Shown here one piece after another: positions 30,791-52,972 of a stretch of DNA of 64,000 nt. The position numbers and the translations under genes are program-made. Under the pieces are notes generated by a model. It saw only the letters and a list, made by a program, of their open reading frames with translations, searched no databases and had not been told where the DNA came from. The stretch is taken from NCBI RefSeq assembly GCF_036323475.1, contig NZ_AP028934.1, positions 1,798,001 to 1,862,000 on the forward strand. Direction: 5' to 3'. The DNA is from Solobacterium moorei (GTDB taxonomy: Bacteria > Bacillota_I > Bacilli_A > Erysipelotrichales > Erysipelotrichaceae). Each line of letters opens with the position of its first letter. Positions within the stretch are counted from its first letter, which is position 1.

Positions 30791-31047
30791 AAAAACGCCT
30801 GCCCATAAAAGGACAAGCGTTAACCTGCGGTACCACCTTTTTTAATAGTCTTTTGACTATTCTCTCTTTGAAAATGCAATCACATTCTCTGTCCTTTAAC
30901 GCTGACATTGCGTCTTAAATACTTGCATAAGCTTTCATTAAGCCCTCATGGGTCCATTTGCATACCGCATGCCTGCAGGTTTCCACCATCCCCGCTCTCT
31001 AGAAGTTGCTTCTGTATGTTTGATCTCCCAATCATCGGTTTGTTATG
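30791..31047 (-). ncRNA. T-box riboswitch, probable tryptophan specifier
   Basis: The leader carries the conserved T-box sequence GGTGGTACCGC (30827-30837 on the minus strand), a terminator with stem AACGCTTGTCC/GGGCAGGCGTT (30791-30822) and a long Stem I with the AGAGAGC-type conserved segment near 30996. On the 3' side of the Stem I internal loop a UGG codon followed by a purine (30954-30956) is the likely specifier, i.e. Trp. Uncharged tRNA would bind and stabilise antitermination, turning on the importer. AUG or GAC readings one or two bases away are less likely given the downstream genes. Confidence 0.88.
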
Positions 31048-45214: not shown

Positions 45215-46742
45215 CTGAATCGAAGTTGATATTGTCTTAATGAACCGAAAGGGAAAATGCCCCATTTATAGAAAGGAATTGTTATGATTCATTCCATTAG
45301 ATTGGATTGAATATGAAAAAGATTATATTAACCCCTATGGAAGAAAACAAATACAACATTATTAAAGAACTGGTTGATCATTCTGGCAATAAACGCCGTG
45401 CGGCATTAAAACTAAATTGTTCTATTCGTACTATCAACCGCCTGATTACACGTTATAAGTCTGAAGGCAAATCCTCATTTTCACATGGTAATCGTGGACG
45501 ATTACCATCAAACACATTCTCACTGGAAACGAAAAACAAAATCATTGAACTCTATCTTAACGAGTATCTTGATGCCAACATCACTCATTTCAGTGAAATC
45601 GTCCAGATGGACCTCGGCATCTCCATCAGTGACACCACTATTAGAAACTGGTTATCAGAACACGATGTCTTGTCCCCAAAGGCCCATCGAAAAACCAAGA
45701 AACAATTAAAGGAACGTTTGACAAAACGATTAGACCAAACAACATCTACAAAGGCCAGAAACGCAATCAATGAACAAATCGAATCAATTGAAGATGATAC
45801 GCCTCATTCACGAAGATCTAGATCCAAATATATGGGAGAGATGATTCAAATGGACGCTTCAAGCTACGAATGGATTCCTGGCGAGATATGGCATCTACAC
45901 CTAGCTGTAGATGATGCGACCGGTACTGCTGTTGGAGCCCACTTTGATATACAGGAGACCCTACGTGGCTATTACAACGTTTTCCATCAGATACTAGTCG
46001 ACTATGGCATACCCGCTCTATTCTATACGGATAAACGAACCGTATTTGAATACAGAAAGAAAACCAAGGCCTTCGACGACGAGGATACCTTCACACAGTT
46101 CTCCTACGCCTGCCATAACCTTGGTGTCGAAATCAAAACAACGAGCATCGCACAAGCCAAAGGACGCATCGAACGTCTCAACCAGACTTTCCAATCACGT
46201 TTGCCAGTTGAACTTAGACGTGCTCGTATTACTTGTATGGCGGACGCGAATAAGTTCCTAAAATCCTACCTAAAGGAATTCAATGCAAGGTTCGCCCTAC
46301 ACTTGAATAGTACCAATTCTGTATTTGAAGTACAACCAGATATAGAAACAATCAATCAAACATTGGCAATCATTTCATCGAGAATAGTCGATCAAGGCAA
46401 CTGTATCAAGTTCAAAAACAAGTATTGGATGGCCTATGACAAGGAACACAATAGAATTCCACTAAGACCTAAGATGGAGGTATTGGTTATTGAATCATTT
46501 GATCAAAAGATCTTTGTCAATGCGATGGATACACTATACATCTTAGAAGAAGTACAAGTGTTTGAAGAAAATTCGGGTGAGTTCGATAATATCATTGAAA
46601 CTCCTGAGAAAAAGAAAGTATATATTCCGCCGATATCTCACCCTTGGAGGAAGTATTCATATCAATTATTTACAAAAAAGCAGAACTATTATAGCTCCGC
46701 TAATGTTCGTTAATTTTTAAGACATTTTCATTTTTGGTTGAC
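45215..46742 (+). mobile_element. IS1202-like insertion sequence
   Basis: About 1528 bp between the 28-bp direct repeats. The ends show imperfect inverted repeats over about 26 bp, converging on TGTCTTAA at 45233-45240 and its complement near 46715-46722. One intact transposase gene is inside. The very long target duplication argues for the IS1202 group. Confidence 0.85.
45307..46713 (+). CDS. DDE transposase of IS1202/ISNCY type
   Basis: The 468-residue protein has an N-terminal helix-turn-helix (RRAALKLNCSIRTINRLITR, about 32-51) then SFSHGNRGRLPS, a second HTH-like region (ISISDTTIRNWL) and an integrase core. The DDE candidates are IQMDASSYEWIP near 179, LFYTDKRTVFEY near 240 and KGRIERLNQTF near 287. 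It ends in a beta-rich C-terminal domain. The frame is complete with a start at the first in-frame ATG; an alternative ATG is two codons later (45313). Family naming rests on the sequence style and the long target duplication. Confidence 0.85.
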   Translation: MNMKKIILTPMEENKYNIIKELVDHSGNKRRAALKLNCSIRTINRLITRYKSEGKSSFSHGNRGRLPSNTFSLETKNKIIELYLNEYLDANITHFSEIVQMDLGISISDTTIRNWLSEHDVLSPKAHRKTKKQLKERLTKRLDQTTSTKARNAINEQIESIEDDTPHSRRSRSKYMGEMIQMDASSYEWIPGEIWHLHLAVDDATGTAVGAHFDIQETLRGYYNVFHQILVDYGIPALFYTDKRTVFEYRKKTKAFDDEDTFTQFSYACHNLGVEIKTTSIAQAKGRIERLNQTFQSRLPVELRRARITCMADANKFLKSYLKEFNARFALHLNSTNSVFEVQPDIETINQTLAIISSRIVDQGNCIKFKNKYWMAYDKEHNRIPLRPKMEVLVIESFDQKIFVNAMDTLYILEEVQVFEENSGEFDNIIETPEKKKVYIPPISHPWRKYSYQLFTKKQNYYSSANVR

Positions 46743-46770
46743 ATAGACACGCAAAACAATGAAAGCGTTT
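46743..46770 (+). repeat. Target duplication, right copy
   Basis: Second copy of the 28-bp direct repeat; its last base overlaps the ABC-F stop codon. Confidence 0.9.
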
Positions 46771-48317
46771 TACTGGGATTCTATCGTATAACGATGTAAT
46801 CCCGTTGAATTTAACAAATAGATATCATCAAAAACTTCCTGAATGAACTTTCGATCATGAGATATAGCGATGATTGCTCCACCAAAGTTCTTTAACTCTT
46901 CTCTTACAACCGGAGCCGATAATGGTGAGAAGTTACGCGTCGGCTCATCAAGCAGTAAGACGTTGGCACCCTCTAGATGCATCTTTAACATGAACACCTT
47001 GGTACGCTGCCCACCTGATAGCTCTGTTAAAGAATGTTCCATCTCATCAGATGTAAACTTCATTGAACCAAGATGCTGACGGATACGTGTAATATCCTCT
47101 TTATCCCCTACGGTTGTCAAGAAATCAATTGGCGAATCATACATATATAGGATTTCGTTATAGTTTTGTGGCATATATCCAATACGGATATCTTCTCTTT
47201 CAGTTAAAGATTCATGTATCTTATGTAATAGCGTTGTTTTGCCACAACCATTATCGCCAATGATACACACCTTTTGATTTCCAAATACTTGTAATGCAAT
47301 ATTATCCGCTAATATTTTCGATTCATCCTTTGTCATTAACCGATCTAATTGATAGTCCAGAATCTGTTTGTCACTGGCAAAGGGTTCGACATCAAAGTGA
47401 AAGAATATCGCATCCTCGCGTAGTGGAATCTCGGTCATATTCTCACGTTCTCTTTCAAAGCGTTTTCCCATCGCCTTGACACTTCTCATCTTTTTCTTGA
47501 GATTTGCGGCTGTCTGTGGCGCTTGACGTGATACGACGCGCAGTTCATGTTGGACGCGTTCATAAACCTGTTGGTATTTTTCCATACGTAGCTTGTCTTG
47601 ACGACGCTCACTCTGTGCATCAATCATCTGTTTTTCAAATTGTTTATTACGTAATTCTTTATATGCGTCATAGCCAATATTCATGATTGTATGACGTGCT
47701 TCTGTTTTTCGCTTGACGAATTCTAAATGAACAATACAATTCGCAGTATTCGCTAGTAATGTTTCGTCATGTGAGATATAGATGATTGGAATCTTAGACT
47801 CTTTGATAAAATTCTCTAACCATGCAAGTGTTCGAATATCTAAATCATTGGATGGCTCATCTAACAGTAAAATACTAGGCTGTTCTAGAAGTATCGCTGC
47901 GAGTTGATACTTGATCTTCTCTCCCCCAGAAAGTGAAGACATTGTCTGTGTTTGATAATACATCTCCACGCCACTTCTTAATCCTTGTGCAATGTCATGT
48001 AATTGTGATGGCGTTGCAAGTAAAAACGCATCGCTTTCGCAGAAGTATTCGTATACAGTTTTCTCTGCATACTTATGTTCAAGCTCTTGGGGTAAATAAC
48101 CTATTCTTTCGTTCTTCGAACGTATTGTTCCTTGAACTTCACAATAATTATCAATAAGTTTTTGATCTACAATACATTTGAGTAATGTAGATTTCCCATT
48201 TCCCTCTTCGCCAATGATGGCAATTTTATCTGTTGGTTTAACTGTAAGTGTAAAGTCATCGACAATCTTACGTAGATCATATCGATGACATATTGTTAAA
48301 TTATGAATTTCTATCAT
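46770..48317 (-). CDS. ABC-F family ATPase, probable antibiotic resistance/ribosome protection type
   Basis: The 515-residue protein has two ATPase domains and no membrane segment: Walker A GEEGNGKST near 36 and GDNGCGKTT near 361, signatures LSGGE near 130 and LSGGQ near 437, Walker B LLLDEPS near 152 and LLLDEPT near 455. A charged helical linker (about 210-300, ERVQHELRVVSRQAPQTAAN) joins them; it is the part that reaches the ribosome's peptidyl centre in resistance ABC-F proteins. It fits the Lsa/Vga/Vml style more than EttA or Uup, mainly because of the attenuator leader. The 3' end abuts the IS1202-like element. Confidence 0.85.
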   Translation of the reverse strand: MIEIHNLTICHRYDLRKIVDDFTLTVKPTDKIAIIGEEGNGKSTLLKCIVDQKLIDNYCEVQGTIRSKNERIGYLPQELEHKYAEKTVYEYFCESDAFLLATPSQLHDIAQGLRSGVEMYYQTQTMSSLSGGEKIKYQLAAILLEQPSILLLDEPSNDLDIRTLAWLENFIKESKIPIIYISHDETLLANTANCIVHLEFVKRKTEARHTIMNIGYDAYKELRNKQFEKQMIDAQSERRQDKLRMEKYQQVYERVQHELRVVSRQAPQTAANLKKKMRSVKAMGKRFERERENMTEIPLREDAIFFHFDVEPFASDKQILDYQLDRLMTKDESKILADNIALQVFGNQKVCIIGDNGCGKTTLLHKIHESLTEREDIRIGYMPQNYNEILYMYDSPIDFLTTVGDKEDITRIRQHLGSMKFTSDEMEHSLTELSGGQRTKVFMLKMHLEGANVLLLDEPTRNFSPLSAPVVREELKNFGGAIIAISHDRKFIQEVFDDIYLLNSTGLHRYTIESQ

Positions 48318-48331
48318 TTGATTCCTCCTAC

Positions 48332-48489
48332 AAAAAATCTGCTCTTTTCATGCGAAAAAAGCAGACAAAAATTCTCTGTATAGAGGTTTTAATCCGTTTC
48401 CACGCATGAAAAGATGTTTTTTAAATTCTCTTTTCATATGTTTAAATTCGGATTAAAGGCGCATGTTCTTCTCAATCACCACACATCAT
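48332..48489 (-). promoter_or_regulatory. Attenuator leader of the ABC-F gene with short upstream ORFs
   Basis: On the minus strand a terminator (TCTGCT/AGCAGA outer stem 48338-48365, six U residues) lies just before the ABC-F ribosome site. CTTTTCATGCG upstream (around 48403-48413) is fully complementary to the CGCATGAAAAG arm of that terminator, giving an antiterminator. A third stem TTTAATCCG/CGGATTAAA would sequester the antiterminator region. A four-codon ORF Met-Arg-Leu-stop (48453-48464) overlaps the 5' arm of that stem; a Met-Met-Cys-Gly-Asp ORF (48472-48489) precedes it and a 29-codon frame (48348-48437) overlaps the terminator. Confidence 0.8.
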
Positions 48490-48542
48490 ACAATGTGACC
48501 TTTCTAATAAGTTATATCATAGAATTAAAAAAACACAAACTT

Positions 48543-49034
48543 TTATAGAATGAATAGTCCAAATAATACTCCTAGAAGATATCCAATGATTACATCCAAT
48601 GGATAATGTACTCCCCCTACTACACGGATGTATCCTTCTAGTGCAGCTAGCACCAATAGTATGCATGCAAATAGTGGAGAAATTGTAAAGCACATCATCG
48701 CAATGATTGAAGCCGAGAATACGTGTCGACTTGGCATTGCGTTATGTTGAGTTTCTTTTTCTAGGATTTGATCAATGGGATATTCCTCGTAAGGACGAGG
48801 ACGTGCTAAAACTTTACGTAGTAATGTTACTCCAACAATTGAAAGTAATGGAATTAGAATTGCCGGTAATAACTTCTCACTTTGTTTTACAAATAGATAT
48901 AACAACAGTAATGGATATACAACGTAATATGTATTTGTCACAATTTTATTACACAGACGTAATTGATTTCGCTTTGCGTCTGTCTGATAGTTTTTTGTAA
49001 GTTCTTCATAGAACCTTAGGTAATTCGTTTTCAT
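48543..49034 (-). CDS. PAP2-family membrane phosphatase
   Basis: The 163-residue protein has five membrane helices and the three phosphatase motifs: KVLARPRPYE near 75, PSRHVFS near 101 (family usually PSGH) and RVVGGVHYPLDV near 140. Such enzymes dephosphorylate undecaprenyl pyrophosphate or phosphatidic acid/PGP at the outer membrane face. The closeness to pgsA would fit lipid phosphate metabolism, but recA lies between, so this is weak. Confidence 0.87.
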   Translation of the reverse strand: MKTNYLRFYEELTKNYQTDAKRNQLRLCNKIVTNTYYVVYPLLLLYLFVKQSEKLLPAILIPLLSIVGVTLLRKVLARPRPYEEYPIDQILEKETQHNAMPSRHVFSASIIAMMCFTISPLFACILLVLAALEGYIRVVGGVHYPLDVIIGYLLGVLFGLFIL

Positions 49035-49088
49035 ATAGTAACATCATACAACAAATTCAATTTCTTTTCTGTATCATGCTTATTCGTT

Positions 49089-49121
49089 AAAAAGATACCC
49101 TTACGTTTCAGTAAGAGTACC
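49089..49121 (-). terminator. Terminator after recA
   Basis: Eleven-pair stem with two mismatched/wobble pairs (49094-49104 and 49111-49121), U tract on the minus strand. Confidence 0.8.
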
Positions 49122-49126
49122 TTTGA

Positions 49127-50179
49127 TTATTCTGCTGTTGCTTCTGCGGAAACAGATTCTGTCGTAGGGAATAACTTCGCTTTTACAAGTTCTGTAATCT
49201 CTGCATCAAACTCTGGATGATTCTTCATATATTCACGTACAGAGTTAAAACCTTGTCCAAGTTTTTCTCCCTTGTAAGAGAACCAAGCACCTGCTTTTTC
49301 AATGATGTCGTTTTCTACTGCTAAACTGACAACTTCATCGATATGAGAGATTCCTTGACCAAAGATCATATTTACAACTGCTACCTTGAATGGAGGAGCC
49401 ACCTTATTCTTAACAACTTTTACCTTTGTGGCAGAACCGATTACTTCGCTACCTTCCTTGAGTGCTTCACCCTTACGTACATCTAAACGTACAGATGAGT
49501 AGAACTTAAGCGCACGACCACCTGGTGTTGTTTCCGGATTGCCAAACATGATACCAACCTTTTCACGCAACTGATTGATGAAGATTGCTGTTGTATTAGA
49601 ACGGTTCATAACACCCGCTAACTTACGCATTGCCTTTGACATCAAGCGTGCCTGTAAACCTACAGATGCGTCTCCCATTTCACCATTTAATTCTGCCTGC
49701 GGAACAAGTGCAGCTACAGAGTCAATAACCACTAAATCAATTGCGCCTGATTTAATCAATACTTCTGTAATCTCTAATGCCTGCTCTCCAGAGTCTGGTT
49801 GCGATAAGATAAGTTCATCAATATCAACACCTAACTTTTTAGCATAGAGTGGATCGATTGCGTTTTCTGCATCGATAAATGCACATCTACCACCTTGTTT
49901 TTGACATTCTGCGATTGCATGTAATGCAAGTGTTGTCTTACCCGAAGATTCTGGTCCATAAATTTCAATGATTCTTCCTTTTGGATAACCACCGATACCC
50001 AATGCACTATCAAGTGCTAAAGAACCGGATGGAATTGCGTCTACTGATACATCAGCACGGTCTCCCAAACGCATGATACTGCCTTTTCCATATTCTTTTT
50101 CAATTGCCTTGAGTGCATCCGCAAGTAGTTGATCTCGCTTATCTGCGGTAACTGTCTTTTCTTTTTTTTCTGCCGCCAT
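49127..50179 (-). CDS. recA: Recombinase A
   Basis: RecA drives homologous strand exchange and SOS induction. The 350-residue protein shows Walker [10 protein letters not shown] near 72, the L1/L2 loops (region 160-215, including [20 protein letters not shown]) and the C-terminal domain. Length is normal. GGAGGAG precedes the start. It is followed by its own terminator and preceded by pgsA after 49 bases, the usual pgsA-recA order of Bacillota, with cinA missing. Confidence 0.98.
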
Positions 50180-51021: not shown

Positions 51022-52242
51022 CTAAGAATGATATAGAGTACCATTCTTACATAGGCTATAGATTATGACCAGTAATTTATGAGCACTAGCAGTATAGGCA
51101 GCTTTAGACGACAATGGGCATTGGGTCTGCTGTCTTTTCTTTTTGGTGAATTCATATAGTGGATCTTCTTTGCGCAATCGATAATTACATTGTGCACCAA
51201 GGTATAAAAGGCATCGCAAATGCTTATTGCCTTTCTTTGATATCTTGAAATGCAGTCCATCAATATCTCCGGATTGTTGTATCTTTGGATTCAAGCCTGC
51301 ATATGCCACGATAGCCGCTCTGTTATCAAATCGGCTTACATCTCCAAGCTCTGCTATGATACGGGCTGCCAGATTCTCTCCGATTCCAACAATACTAACA
51401 ACAGATGCAAAATAAGGACATGTTCGTGCTATCTCTATCATTTCCTTCAATAGTGAATCGCATTTTTTCTTCTGTTCCTGCACGTTCTCTATCAAGCTTG
51501 GCAATTTGACTACTTCTATATCATCGATATCACATCCTGAATAGCACTCCTTTGCCTTCTCGTAGATCTTATGTACGATTCTTTCTGTATATCCTTTTAA
51601 ATGACCTGTACGATGCCCAACGGTCTTAACGATGGTATCCTCTCTATGGCCCAATAGTAAGGATGGATGAGGATATCTTTTTAATATCTCCATTGGGAGT
51701 GGATCATACAGATTTTGATTCCCTTTAAAGGTCTTATCAATCCTTGGATATATGATATCCAGCATGGATCTCAAACTCACTTTGCGTTTCCGAAGATGAA
51801 CCAACTCACTTTCATATATACGGCTCAATTGATAGAGTCTTTTGTACTCTTGTGGTTGTGCTTGATATTGTCTTAGTTCCTTCTCACAATAGTACGCTTT
51901 TGCGATATGTGCACAGTCTAATGCGTCTGTCTTATTACTATGTAGGGAGGTCTTGCGATAGGTCGCAGATAATAATGGAGAAATGATGTAGTACCTTATC
52001 TTGTGGTCTTCAAGATATTTTTGTAGTGGTCGATGATAGACACCTGTAGCCTCAAAGATAACTGGTATATCTTCTCGTTCTGTCTTAGCTTCAAGGTCTT
52101 TGATAGTTTGCCCTAATTTCTGGAAACCATCGATCGTAGCTGAAAGCTGCTTTGGTTTTCGCATTGGATGTCCATTCTCTATGAAGGGCTGGTAGTGACA
52201 GGAACCCTTTGATACATCCACTGTAATGATTGGTCCTTCCAT
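51022..52242 (-). CDS. IS110-family transposase
   Basis: The 406-residue protein has the N-terminal RuvC-like DEDD domain (ITVDVSKGS; IFEATGVYHRPL; SNKTDALDCAHIAK) and the C-terminal Tnp_20 domain (SIVGIGENLAARIIAELGD, FDNRAAIVAYAGLNPKIQQSG) with its catalytic Ser region. IS110 elements insert without long inverted repeats, guided by a bridge RNA from their non-coding end. The ATG at 52242 is chosen because AAGGAG lies nine bases upstream; the frame extends to 52302 without support. Element ends cannot be placed from sequence alone. Confidence 0.92.
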   Translation of the reverse strand: MEGPIITVDVSKGSCHYQPFIENGHPMRKPKQLSATIDGFQKLGQTIKDLEAKTEREDIPVIFEATGVYHRPLQKYLEDHKIRYYIISPLLSATYRKTSLHSNKTDALDCAHIAKAYYCEKELRQYQAQPQEYKRLYQLSRIYESELVHLRKRKVSLRSMLDIIYPRIDKTFKGNQNLYDPLPMEILKRYPHPSLLLGHREDTIVKTVGHRTGHLKGYTERIVHKIYEKAKECYSGCDIDDIEVVKLPSLIENVQEQKKKCDSLLKEMIEIARTCPYFASVVSIVGIGENLAARIIAELGDVSRFDNRAAIVAYAGLNPKIQQSGDIDGLHFKISKKGNKHLRCLLYLGAQCNYRLRKEDPLYEFTKKKRQQTQCPLSSKAAYTASAHKLLVIIYSLCKNGTLYHS

Positions 52243-52590
52243 GATGGAATACTCCTTTCTTTCTGATATGCATAATGTCTTGGTAAACTTCCCCATCCCC
52301 ACATCCGACTATTTTTCTGGCTTATATACGACATATCTAACTGTTTCCTGGATTGTCATCTTGATAAAGCAGCCTAAGAATATAGGAGGGAAGCAGAACG
52401 CTTTTTATTACGGACTCAATGATATCACTGGTCTAAAAGAAGGTACGTTCTCACTTTACCCAGACCAATTCCCATACATGCCTGTACGAGAAAGGCCAGA
52501 AACATTCTAGTGTCCCTGACCTCTATATCATATTCTTCTTCTGAAGTTTTTTCTCTATGATCAGGACTAGATTATTCCTGATTTCATAAT
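52243..52590. other. Non-coding flank of the IS110 element with a possible gene remnant
   Basis: About 350 bases lie between the IS110 start codon and the rnpB terminator. The proximal part could encode the IS110 bridge RNA. Between about 52365 and 52510 the plus strand reads a protein-like tail (GGKQNAFYYGLNDITGLKEG and onward to ERPETF-stop) with no start, possibly the 3' remnant of a gene cut by the insertion. I do not recognise it. Confidence 0.35.
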
Positions 52591-52616: not shown

Positions 52617-52972
52617 AAATGCGTACAATTGTAAGCCATGTTCTGTCCTGTTTCCAGGGGCAGCCATTTATCTGTGCTTTCACACCTGCATCACGCTTCA
52701 GTTCGCCTTCTGCAGTTCCTCTACCAAATTTGAGTTTCTCGCTTGCGGGGTTTATCTCGTTCCACCCGATAGGTTTCCCTATCGGCTACGTCACTGTGAC
52801 ACCTTAAGGGCTTAAACCATGACCGAAGTTTTAGGCTCTCGCTCCGCCGTTATCTTTCGATACCCGGTCTTATTAATTGGGCCGGCACAAACACTACCAT
52901 CATCGCAGATGGTGCGAGCATGGACTTTCCTCTAACACCATAGGTGCCAGCGACTGCCTCATGTACGTATAC
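52617..52972 (-). ncRNA. rnpB: RNase P RNA, bacterial type B likely
   Basis: On the minus strand the conserved P4 5' strand GAGGAAAGTCCATGCTCGCA is near 52915-52936 and its 3' partner ACAGAACATGGCTTACA near 52629-52648. GGCGGAGCGAGAG and the CR-type segments lie between in order. It is the catalytic RNA that removes tRNA 5' leaders. It follows gpsB directly, as in Bacillus. The ends are approximate. Confidence 0.96.

Follow-up and report, generated by a model that had tools for sequence, protein, structure and literature searches.

The window analysed here is a 64,000-nucleotide stretch of the Solobacterium moorei contig NZ_AP028934.1. The gene of interest, on the minus strand, encodes an ABC-F ATPase of 515 residues (46770–48317, with its start at 48317) and is preceded by a Shine-Dalgarno sequence, TAGGAGG (48324–48330), and by a structured leader. 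Elsewhere the window holds a T-box leader (30806–31044) and a class B RNase P RNA (52627–52965), both on the minus strand, as well as ORFs that read as transposases of mobile elements at 45307–46713 (plus strand) and 51022–52302 (minus strand).

All elements of the leader lie on the minus strand and are described here in the direction of transcription. An extended −10 promoter element, TGATATAAC, can be read at 48511–48519; it is absent from the consensus scan, which also demands a −35 element. Close to where the transcript is predicted to begin lies AGAAAGG (48499–48505), picked out by complementarity to the 16S tail as the putative 5′ half of a split Shine-Dalgarno sequence whose 3′ half, GGTGAT, occupies 48475–48480. 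Between the two halves a hairpin, CACATT-GTAT-GATGTG (48482–48497), is predicted. There follows a mini-ORF, ATG CGC CTT TAA (48453–48464), spelling Met-Arg-Leu-stop, so that a short upstream ORF (uORF) with a ribosome site of its own (GGTGAT, pairing −9.7) precedes the ABC-F gene. The outer 5′ arm of stem 1, the anti-antiterminator, overlaps this mini-ORF (48449–48457) and matches the outer 3′ arm, CGGATTAAA (48388–48396), in 9 of 9 pairs; the inner arms are TATGAAAAGA (48429–48438) and the segment 48405–48414. The antiterminator arm, CTTTTCATGCG (48403–48413), is complementary at 11 of 11 positions to 48344–48354 in the intrinsic terminator (48332–48366), which the consensus scan recognizes as a hairpin from 48366 to 48337 and a U run to 48332. 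Ahead of the terminator, CCTCTATACA (48377–48386) pairs in the folding model with the ABC-F gene's own Shine-Dalgarno sequence in read-through RNA. A preliminary description of this DNA had reported a terminator, an 11-base antiterminator and an earlier stem over a Met-Arg-Leu-stop ORF, and all of these were found where it had placed them, on the minus strand. It had not mentioned the −10 element, the pairing of CCTCTATACA or the two-part Shine-Dalgarno sequence.

The folding energy of the 158-base stretch is −46.3 kcal/mol (z = −5.25), matched by 0 of 200 dinucleotide shuffles. Three terminator-like sites were returned by the consensus scan on the two strands of 46500–49300, versus 1.0 ± 1.0 in shuffles. 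No Rfam family reached its gathering score over the leader. Reading from an in-frame GTG extends the mini-ORF to eight codons, MIEKNMRL* (48453–48479, minus strand; MIEKYMRL* in the letters of the sister species); this GTG sits inside the 3′ Shine-Dalgarno half. A 29-codon open frame, MKREFKKHLF... (48348–48437, minus strand), runs through stem 1 and the terminator and, with a three-base insertion, stays open in the sister species; on inspection it is without a clear ribosome site and was taken as a chance frame.

In the protein a helical linker connects two ABC domains: Pfam ABC_tran matches two stretches, and the AlphaFold2 model (pLDDT 91.4) shows linker helices at residues 216–261 and 267–292. 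This layout is common to housekeeping ABC-F proteins too. The best NCBIfam model is that of ribosomal protection-like ABC-F proteins (NF000355, 288.4 bits), with EttA (234.1 bits) and Vga (214.5 bits) behind it, and all 48 aligned members, the window protein among them, match the ribosomal-protection model at E ≤ 1e-40. The earlier statement that the gene is not annotated as a resistance gene holds in so far as the score of 288.4 bits does not reach the curated cut-off of 380 bits; it is weakened in that NF000355 is still the best NCBIfam model. Foldseek placed VmlR2 on the ribosome (8buu, 25% identity) first and PoxtA and Sal(B) next, and 8buu, 6ha8 and 7p48 were the top structures of a profile search. 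EttA, Uup, YheS and human ABCF1 rank close behind the resistance ABC-Fs, and Uup came first, by a hair, in a single-sequence search. A plasmid search gave four records, 25–28% identical. According to the sections available of the VmlR2 report, its expression brings resistance to pleuromutilins, lincosamides, streptogramin A and nucleosides, with no detectable macrolide resistance (PMC10201436). It is probable that the ABC-F protein of the window likewise confers resistance.

The mini-ORF is a recurrent feature. ABC-F matches were found in 26 of 70 genomes of the genus (E ≤ 1e-100) and in 104 of 315 genomes of the order (E ≤ 1e-95), the latter figure counting the genome of the window. In the sister species (locus L023; L029 is apparently the same contig, from Erysipelotrichaceae bacterium SUG162) the ABC-F protein is 95% identical over the part available, and the mini-ORF is the same letter for letter. 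From 114 gene starts, one of them unplaced (L111), 113 leaders were obtained, a few of which are duplicates. In an unguided scan, 68 of the 113 proved to have an ORF of 2–10 codons preceded by a strong ribosome site; the opposite strand gave 2 of 113 and five shuffled sets 1–8 of 113. In the remaining 45 leaders the scan showed no such ORF. The 65 distinct ORFs, which include no duplicates, comprise 30 of three codons and 17 of four (47 together), the remainder having 5–10. Residue 2 is Lys or Arg in 42 and Tyr in 14, hence basic or Tyr in 56 of 65, in comparison with Lys or Arg in second place in 4 of 28 window genes picked by a like rule. The codons AAG, AAA, AGA, CGC and CGT are all in use at this position, and residue 2 therefore looks to have been kept as a residue. 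Residue 3 varies (MKL, MRN, MKK, MRK, MYR, MKTA and others); MRN, MRK, MKN, MKK, MKKN, MYR, MRL and MKL are frequent peptides. In L002, L014 and other divergent leaders, stem 1, the antiterminator and the terminator persist in different letters. The preliminary description had proposed conservation as a test of its reading, and the small ORF and the stems do recur in related genomes. The scan of 113 leaders used no hand-set positions; a separate leader survey did so for 10 loci and showed another ORF for L017, L018, L020 and L074, of which L017 and L018 were reset for the split-site comparison described below.

Growing transcripts were folded with ViennaRNA, and the switch was scored by pairing probabilities. 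With the mini-ORF free, the antiterminator probability in the growing window leader is at most 0.03. With a ribosome on the mini-ORF it is 1.00 once the transcript reaches 12–14 bases beyond the point where the terminator loop begins, and down to 0.08 at 18 bases; for L002 and L014, every later length tested has the antiterminator winning. Just short of the complete hairpin, the ribosome lowers the terminator probability of the window leader from 0.75 to 0.05. At full hairpin length and at equilibrium, the terminator is retained at 0.89 despite the ribosome. Because the finished terminator wins at equilibrium, the head start of the antiterminator would have to hold kinetically in this leader. 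The antiterminator, the anti-antiterminator over the uORF and the terminator are mutually exclusive, in the window leader only kinetically. A single ribosome's footprint does not extend to the inner half of stem 1.

The modelled effect is centred on the mini-ORF. When a 34-base block was slid along 15 leaders, its placement at the mini-ORF lowered the terminator in 13 of them (the drop ranging from 0.09 for L024 to 0.82 for L002), and placements well downstream were mostly without effect. The response is strong in the window leader, L002, L014, L012, L022, L030 and L034 and weak in L024 and L020. No terminator change was seen on blocking the mini-ORF of the other two leaders, L032 and L009, which were left out of the P-site and spacer-shuffle tests (L032 because another hairpin had been picked, L009 because there was no effect). 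A block from −8 to +21 of the mini-ORF gives a terminator drop of 0.70 in the window leader, matched by 0 of 100 dinucleotide-preserving spacer shuffles; over 13 leaders, the shuffles per 100 that reach the leader's own drop number 0 in nine, 1 in L006, 2 in L031, 7 in L034 and 13 in L020. In the window leader the effect is the same whether the P site holds AUG, codon 2 or codon 3, so that no particular peptide arrest would be needed there. L006 responds to codon 3 in the P site only, AUG having no effect; AUG in the P site is also without effect in L020 and has little in L024, both of which hardly respond at all. In read-through RNA, the AGGAGG of the ABC-F gene has a mean unpaired probability of 0.05 with the mini-ORF free and 0.04 with a ribosome on it, and rises to 0.37 only when the antiterminator is forced. 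A second, translational layer of control over the ABC-F gene seems possible from these models. The earlier proposal that a stalled ribosome frees the antiterminator and turns the ABC-F gene on is supported both by the folding model and by the comparison with relatives.

Close parallels exist among known leaders. As set out in the available portion of PMC9226507, the vmlR leader of Bacillus subtilis has a three-codon uORF inside an anti-antiterminator, an antiterminator, an intrinsic terminator, a hairpin that hides the gene's Shine-Dalgarno sequence, and an ABC-F gene downstream. It differs in that its uORF reads MIN and the Shine-Dalgarno sequence of the uORF is single-stranded before SL-1, whereas here two halves surround a hairpin. 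Control by the vmlR tripeptide uORF was shown by experiment, with lincomycin as the inducer, and in the same portion of that paper the uORF variants MDN and MDK are described as working as well and MRK less well (PMC9226507). The cplR leader, as presented in excerpts of PMC10201436, shares a tripeptide uORF with a basic second residue, MR[I/M], and a 5′ hairpin over the uORF plus a terminator hiding the gene's ribosome site; control by its uORF (MRI) was shown by experiment, the inducers being retapamulin and lincomycin. For VmlR2 the same excerpts give a predicted uORF, MK[L/Q], again with a basic second residue, and the comparison is by uORF consensus alone (PMC10201436). Both cplR and VmlR2 belong to other lineages. 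The authors of the two papers, in the parts available, think that such uORFs stall on drugs acting right after initiation, with little context dependence (PMC9226507, PMC10201436). By analogy, the window leader matches this tripeptide-uORF group of vmlR, cplR and VmlR2. The leaders ErmDL, ErmK, Mef(E)L and HflXr, from partial accounts, are also attenuators with a small ORF in which the letters MRL or RL occur, but they carry RLR within a longer peptide, and here a stop follows Leu. MsrDL resembles the window leader in its ABC-F gene, short ORF and intrinsic terminator and stalls at the stop codon, but it is a six-residue peptide, MYLIFM, in which Leu3 and Ile4 are needed for sensing, and these are unmatched here (PMC10314930, in part).

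We consider it quite likely that a ribosome controls attenuation of transcription at this locus, that the gene so regulated is a VmlR-like ABC-F ribosome-protection gene, and that a second layer of control probably acts on translation. In the absence of drug, a ribosome would read the three codons and depart; stem 1 would then close over the mini-ORF, the terminator would form, and transcription would end before the ABC-F gene. If a drug prevented the earliest peptide bonds from being made, the ribosome would be held on the mini-ORF and stem 1 could not form fully. As the terminator emerges, its loop and 3′ arm would instead be captured by the 3′ arm of stem 1; RNA polymerase would read through, and the ABC-F gene's own ribosome site would open more. 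Instead of macrolides that read Met-Arg-Leu, the inducers are likely to be pleuromutilins, lincosamides, streptogramin A or similar drugs.

The preliminary description had taken Met-Arg-Leu for a macrolide arrest core. Were the leader a macrolide sensor, erythromycin-type drugs would arrest the ribosome on Met-Arg-Leu, for example at the stop codon, and the ABC-F protein would protect against macrolides. The peptide MRL is indeed present in both the window leader and the sister species, and two relatives, L140 (MRLR*) and L137 (MRMRK*), have an R-x-R motif; their uORFs each lie at −143 from the ABC-F start and are a better place to test the macrolide idea. In the window leader and L023, codon 4 is TAA and no Arg follows Leu as in MRLR or R-x-R, and the third residue is unconserved among the mini-ORFs of relatives. 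Moreover, a three-residue chain hardly reaches the drug site in the tunnel, which counts against macrolide sensing. Published leaders bear on both sides. Erythromycin stalls the ribosome at the UAA stop codon of MsrDL (MYLIFM) by blocking release (available part of PMC10314930), and its arrest on ErmDL tolerates the loss of either Arg, the second Arg being critical for telithromycin arrest and of little role in erythromycin arrest (PMC8298421, from excerpts). On the other hand, the erm and mef leaders are described as stalling at MRLR, and the Mef(E) leader truncated to MTASMRL-stop nearly lost macrolide induction (16.6 versus 80.0 units), the same deletion having also changed the RNA structure (PMC4335068, in the sections available). 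VmlR2, the closest solved relative, gave undetectable macrolide resistance (PMC10201436, in part), and the VmlR paper, in its available portion, lists erythromycin as a non-cognate drug (PMC9226507). Since residue 3 varies and a stop follows, the Met-Arg-Leu arrest motif was rejected as the main reading; the earlier claim thus finds no support, and a macrolide sensor is decidedly unlikely.

It is also improbable that the leader is a plain terminator with 5′ UTR structure in which the MRL ORF begins at an ATG present by chance, even where relatives do use their mini-ORFs. The ribosome-site spacing of the window leader is long, as such a reading would have it, but 68 of 113 leaders have a tiny ORF with a strong Shine-Dalgarno sequence at the matching place (antisense, 2 of 113), the mini-ORF is unchanged in the sister species, and the modelled switch centres on it. 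A nutrient attenuator, in which the mini-ORF would sense scarce charged Arg, Lys or Leu tRNA instead of a drug, would use the same folding logic and would suit the Arg or Lys at codon 2 of 42 of the 65 distinct ORFs. However, the three-codon ORFs offer at most two Arg, Lys or Leu codons, the amino acid shifts among Lys, Arg, Tyr, Asn and others, and the gene downstream encodes a translation-factor-like ABC-F protein and not an amino-acid gene product. This alternative seems very improbable. The drug-responsive attenuator proposed above is a known kind of system, a tripeptide-uORF attenuator, in another lineage and with one unusual part.

The unusual part is the ribosome site of the mini-ORF. 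The 16S 3′ end, GGATCACCTCCTTTCT (from one of three 16S genes in the genome), has the full complement AGAAAGGAGGTGATCC. Nineteen leaders were chosen by a visible mini-ORF, with L004, L008, L010, L011, L021, L025, L026, L028 and L075 omitted (L075 is a contig end; L013 is without a start and L029 is the L023 contig). The putative split site occurs in 13 of the 19, the window's included, with 11 distinct inserts. Its order is AGAAAGG, 0–1 base, a predicted hairpin of 5–8 pairs, 1–3 bases, and (G/C)TGAT beside the mini-ORF, and AGAAAGG is invariant in 11 of 11 aligned modules. Folding predicts the hairpin at all 13 split loci; its letters vary and the pairing holds, pair 1 being CG, GC or TA, pair 4 AT, GC or CG, and pair 6 GC, CG, TG or TA. 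Since MAFFT columns did not track the hairpin, pairs were counted per sequence, without a covariance model. When the inserts were shuffled by single letters, the p values for folding as well ranged from 0.000 to 0.068 (at most 0.032 in 12 of 13). Within the genus, L015, L020 and L024 are without AAAGG, L006 and L022 have the halves three bases apart, and L012 has an unpaired 12-base insert. In the outgroup leaders L104 and L098 the site is contiguous (AGAAAGGGTGAGAAG-ATG or like), a form that favours an interrupted ribosome site. Against the 16S tail, the two halves of the window leader pair at −19.3 kcal/mol when joined and at −9.8 and −7.2 kcal/mol apart. The gap from GTGAT to ATG is 10 bases in the window leader and its sister versus 3–4 in relatives; as the 3′ half is 7 bases further from the ATG than in most other leaders, the case for a split site is weaker just there, and initiation at these two mini-ORFs may, to judge from the spacing, be weaker.

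In a protein tree of 67 of 108 full-length proteins (L012, L023 and L027, being partial, are absent), all 11 split rows present fall in one 17-row clade (support 84/85), which mixes them with rows without a split site or a visible leader. No leader is recognizable at the ABC-F genes of the clade members L004, L021, L025 and L026, which would suit constitutive expression or expression from further upstream. In L003, L005, L016, L017, L018, L019, L027 and L007, the split site and mini-ORF lie about 84–100 bases before the gene; these eight short leaders have no strong terminator, and control is perhaps at translation.

We regard it as possible, leaning slightly against, that in one clade of the genus the two halves pair jointly with the 16S tail, with the hairpin looped out as a three-way junction with the ribosome. 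The hairpin could instead serve as a 5′-end stabilizer or as a pause hairpin. Alternatively, AGAAAGG might serve an ORF that starts inside the hairpin, MMCGD* in the window leader. An ATG, GTG or TTG is present in 8 of 13 inserts, which slightly lowered our confidence in the split site; five of the 13 (L003, L005, L016, L019 and L007) have no start codon, so an internal ORF is not general but may apply to the window leader. As judged from search records, no hairpin-split ribosome site was found in the literature searched. A ‘discontinuous’ ribosome site has reportedly been proposed for E. coli rpsA.

The pattern GAAAGGN{10,30}GTGATAGGATG occurs at 7 places in the 315 genomes of the order; six are ABC-F leaders and the seventh is L150, from another genus. 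There (1500–1951) GAAAGG, a hairpin, GTGATAGG and ATG-TTG-ATA-TGA (MLI*) form a split-site motif outside an ABC-F leader. The insert hairpin folds at −7.7 kcal/mol, with 0 of 500 shuffles as good, and MLI* overlaps the start of a 135-residue ORF without a Pfam family. A looser search for GTGATAGGATGARRCTNTRA, with up to two mismatches, gave 25 places in 21 of the 70 genus genomes; ten of these places coincide with the positions of the ABC-F matches. Of the other 15 places, which were inspected, two (L055 and L068) are ABC-F leaders and 13 appear to be ordinary gene starts, coding sequence or nothing, with the exception of L051. At 1500–1560 of L051, ATGAAACTGTAA (MKL*) stands a few bases before an ORF of 491 residues that reads as transporter-like; this may be chance.

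If the split site is real, initiation at the drug sensor could be strong yet tied to early folding of the RNA, so that ribosome loading would be timed to RNA polymerase, and these leaders would offer a natural test of Shine-Dalgarno halves that are distant in sequence and close in space. The reading of the mini-ORF as a tripeptide uORF makes early-stalling drugs, in place of macrolides, the expected inducers. It also suggests that tripeptide-uORF control of ABC-F genes extends across one bacterial order, in which an ABC-F gene of this kind is found in 104 of the 315 genomes searched.
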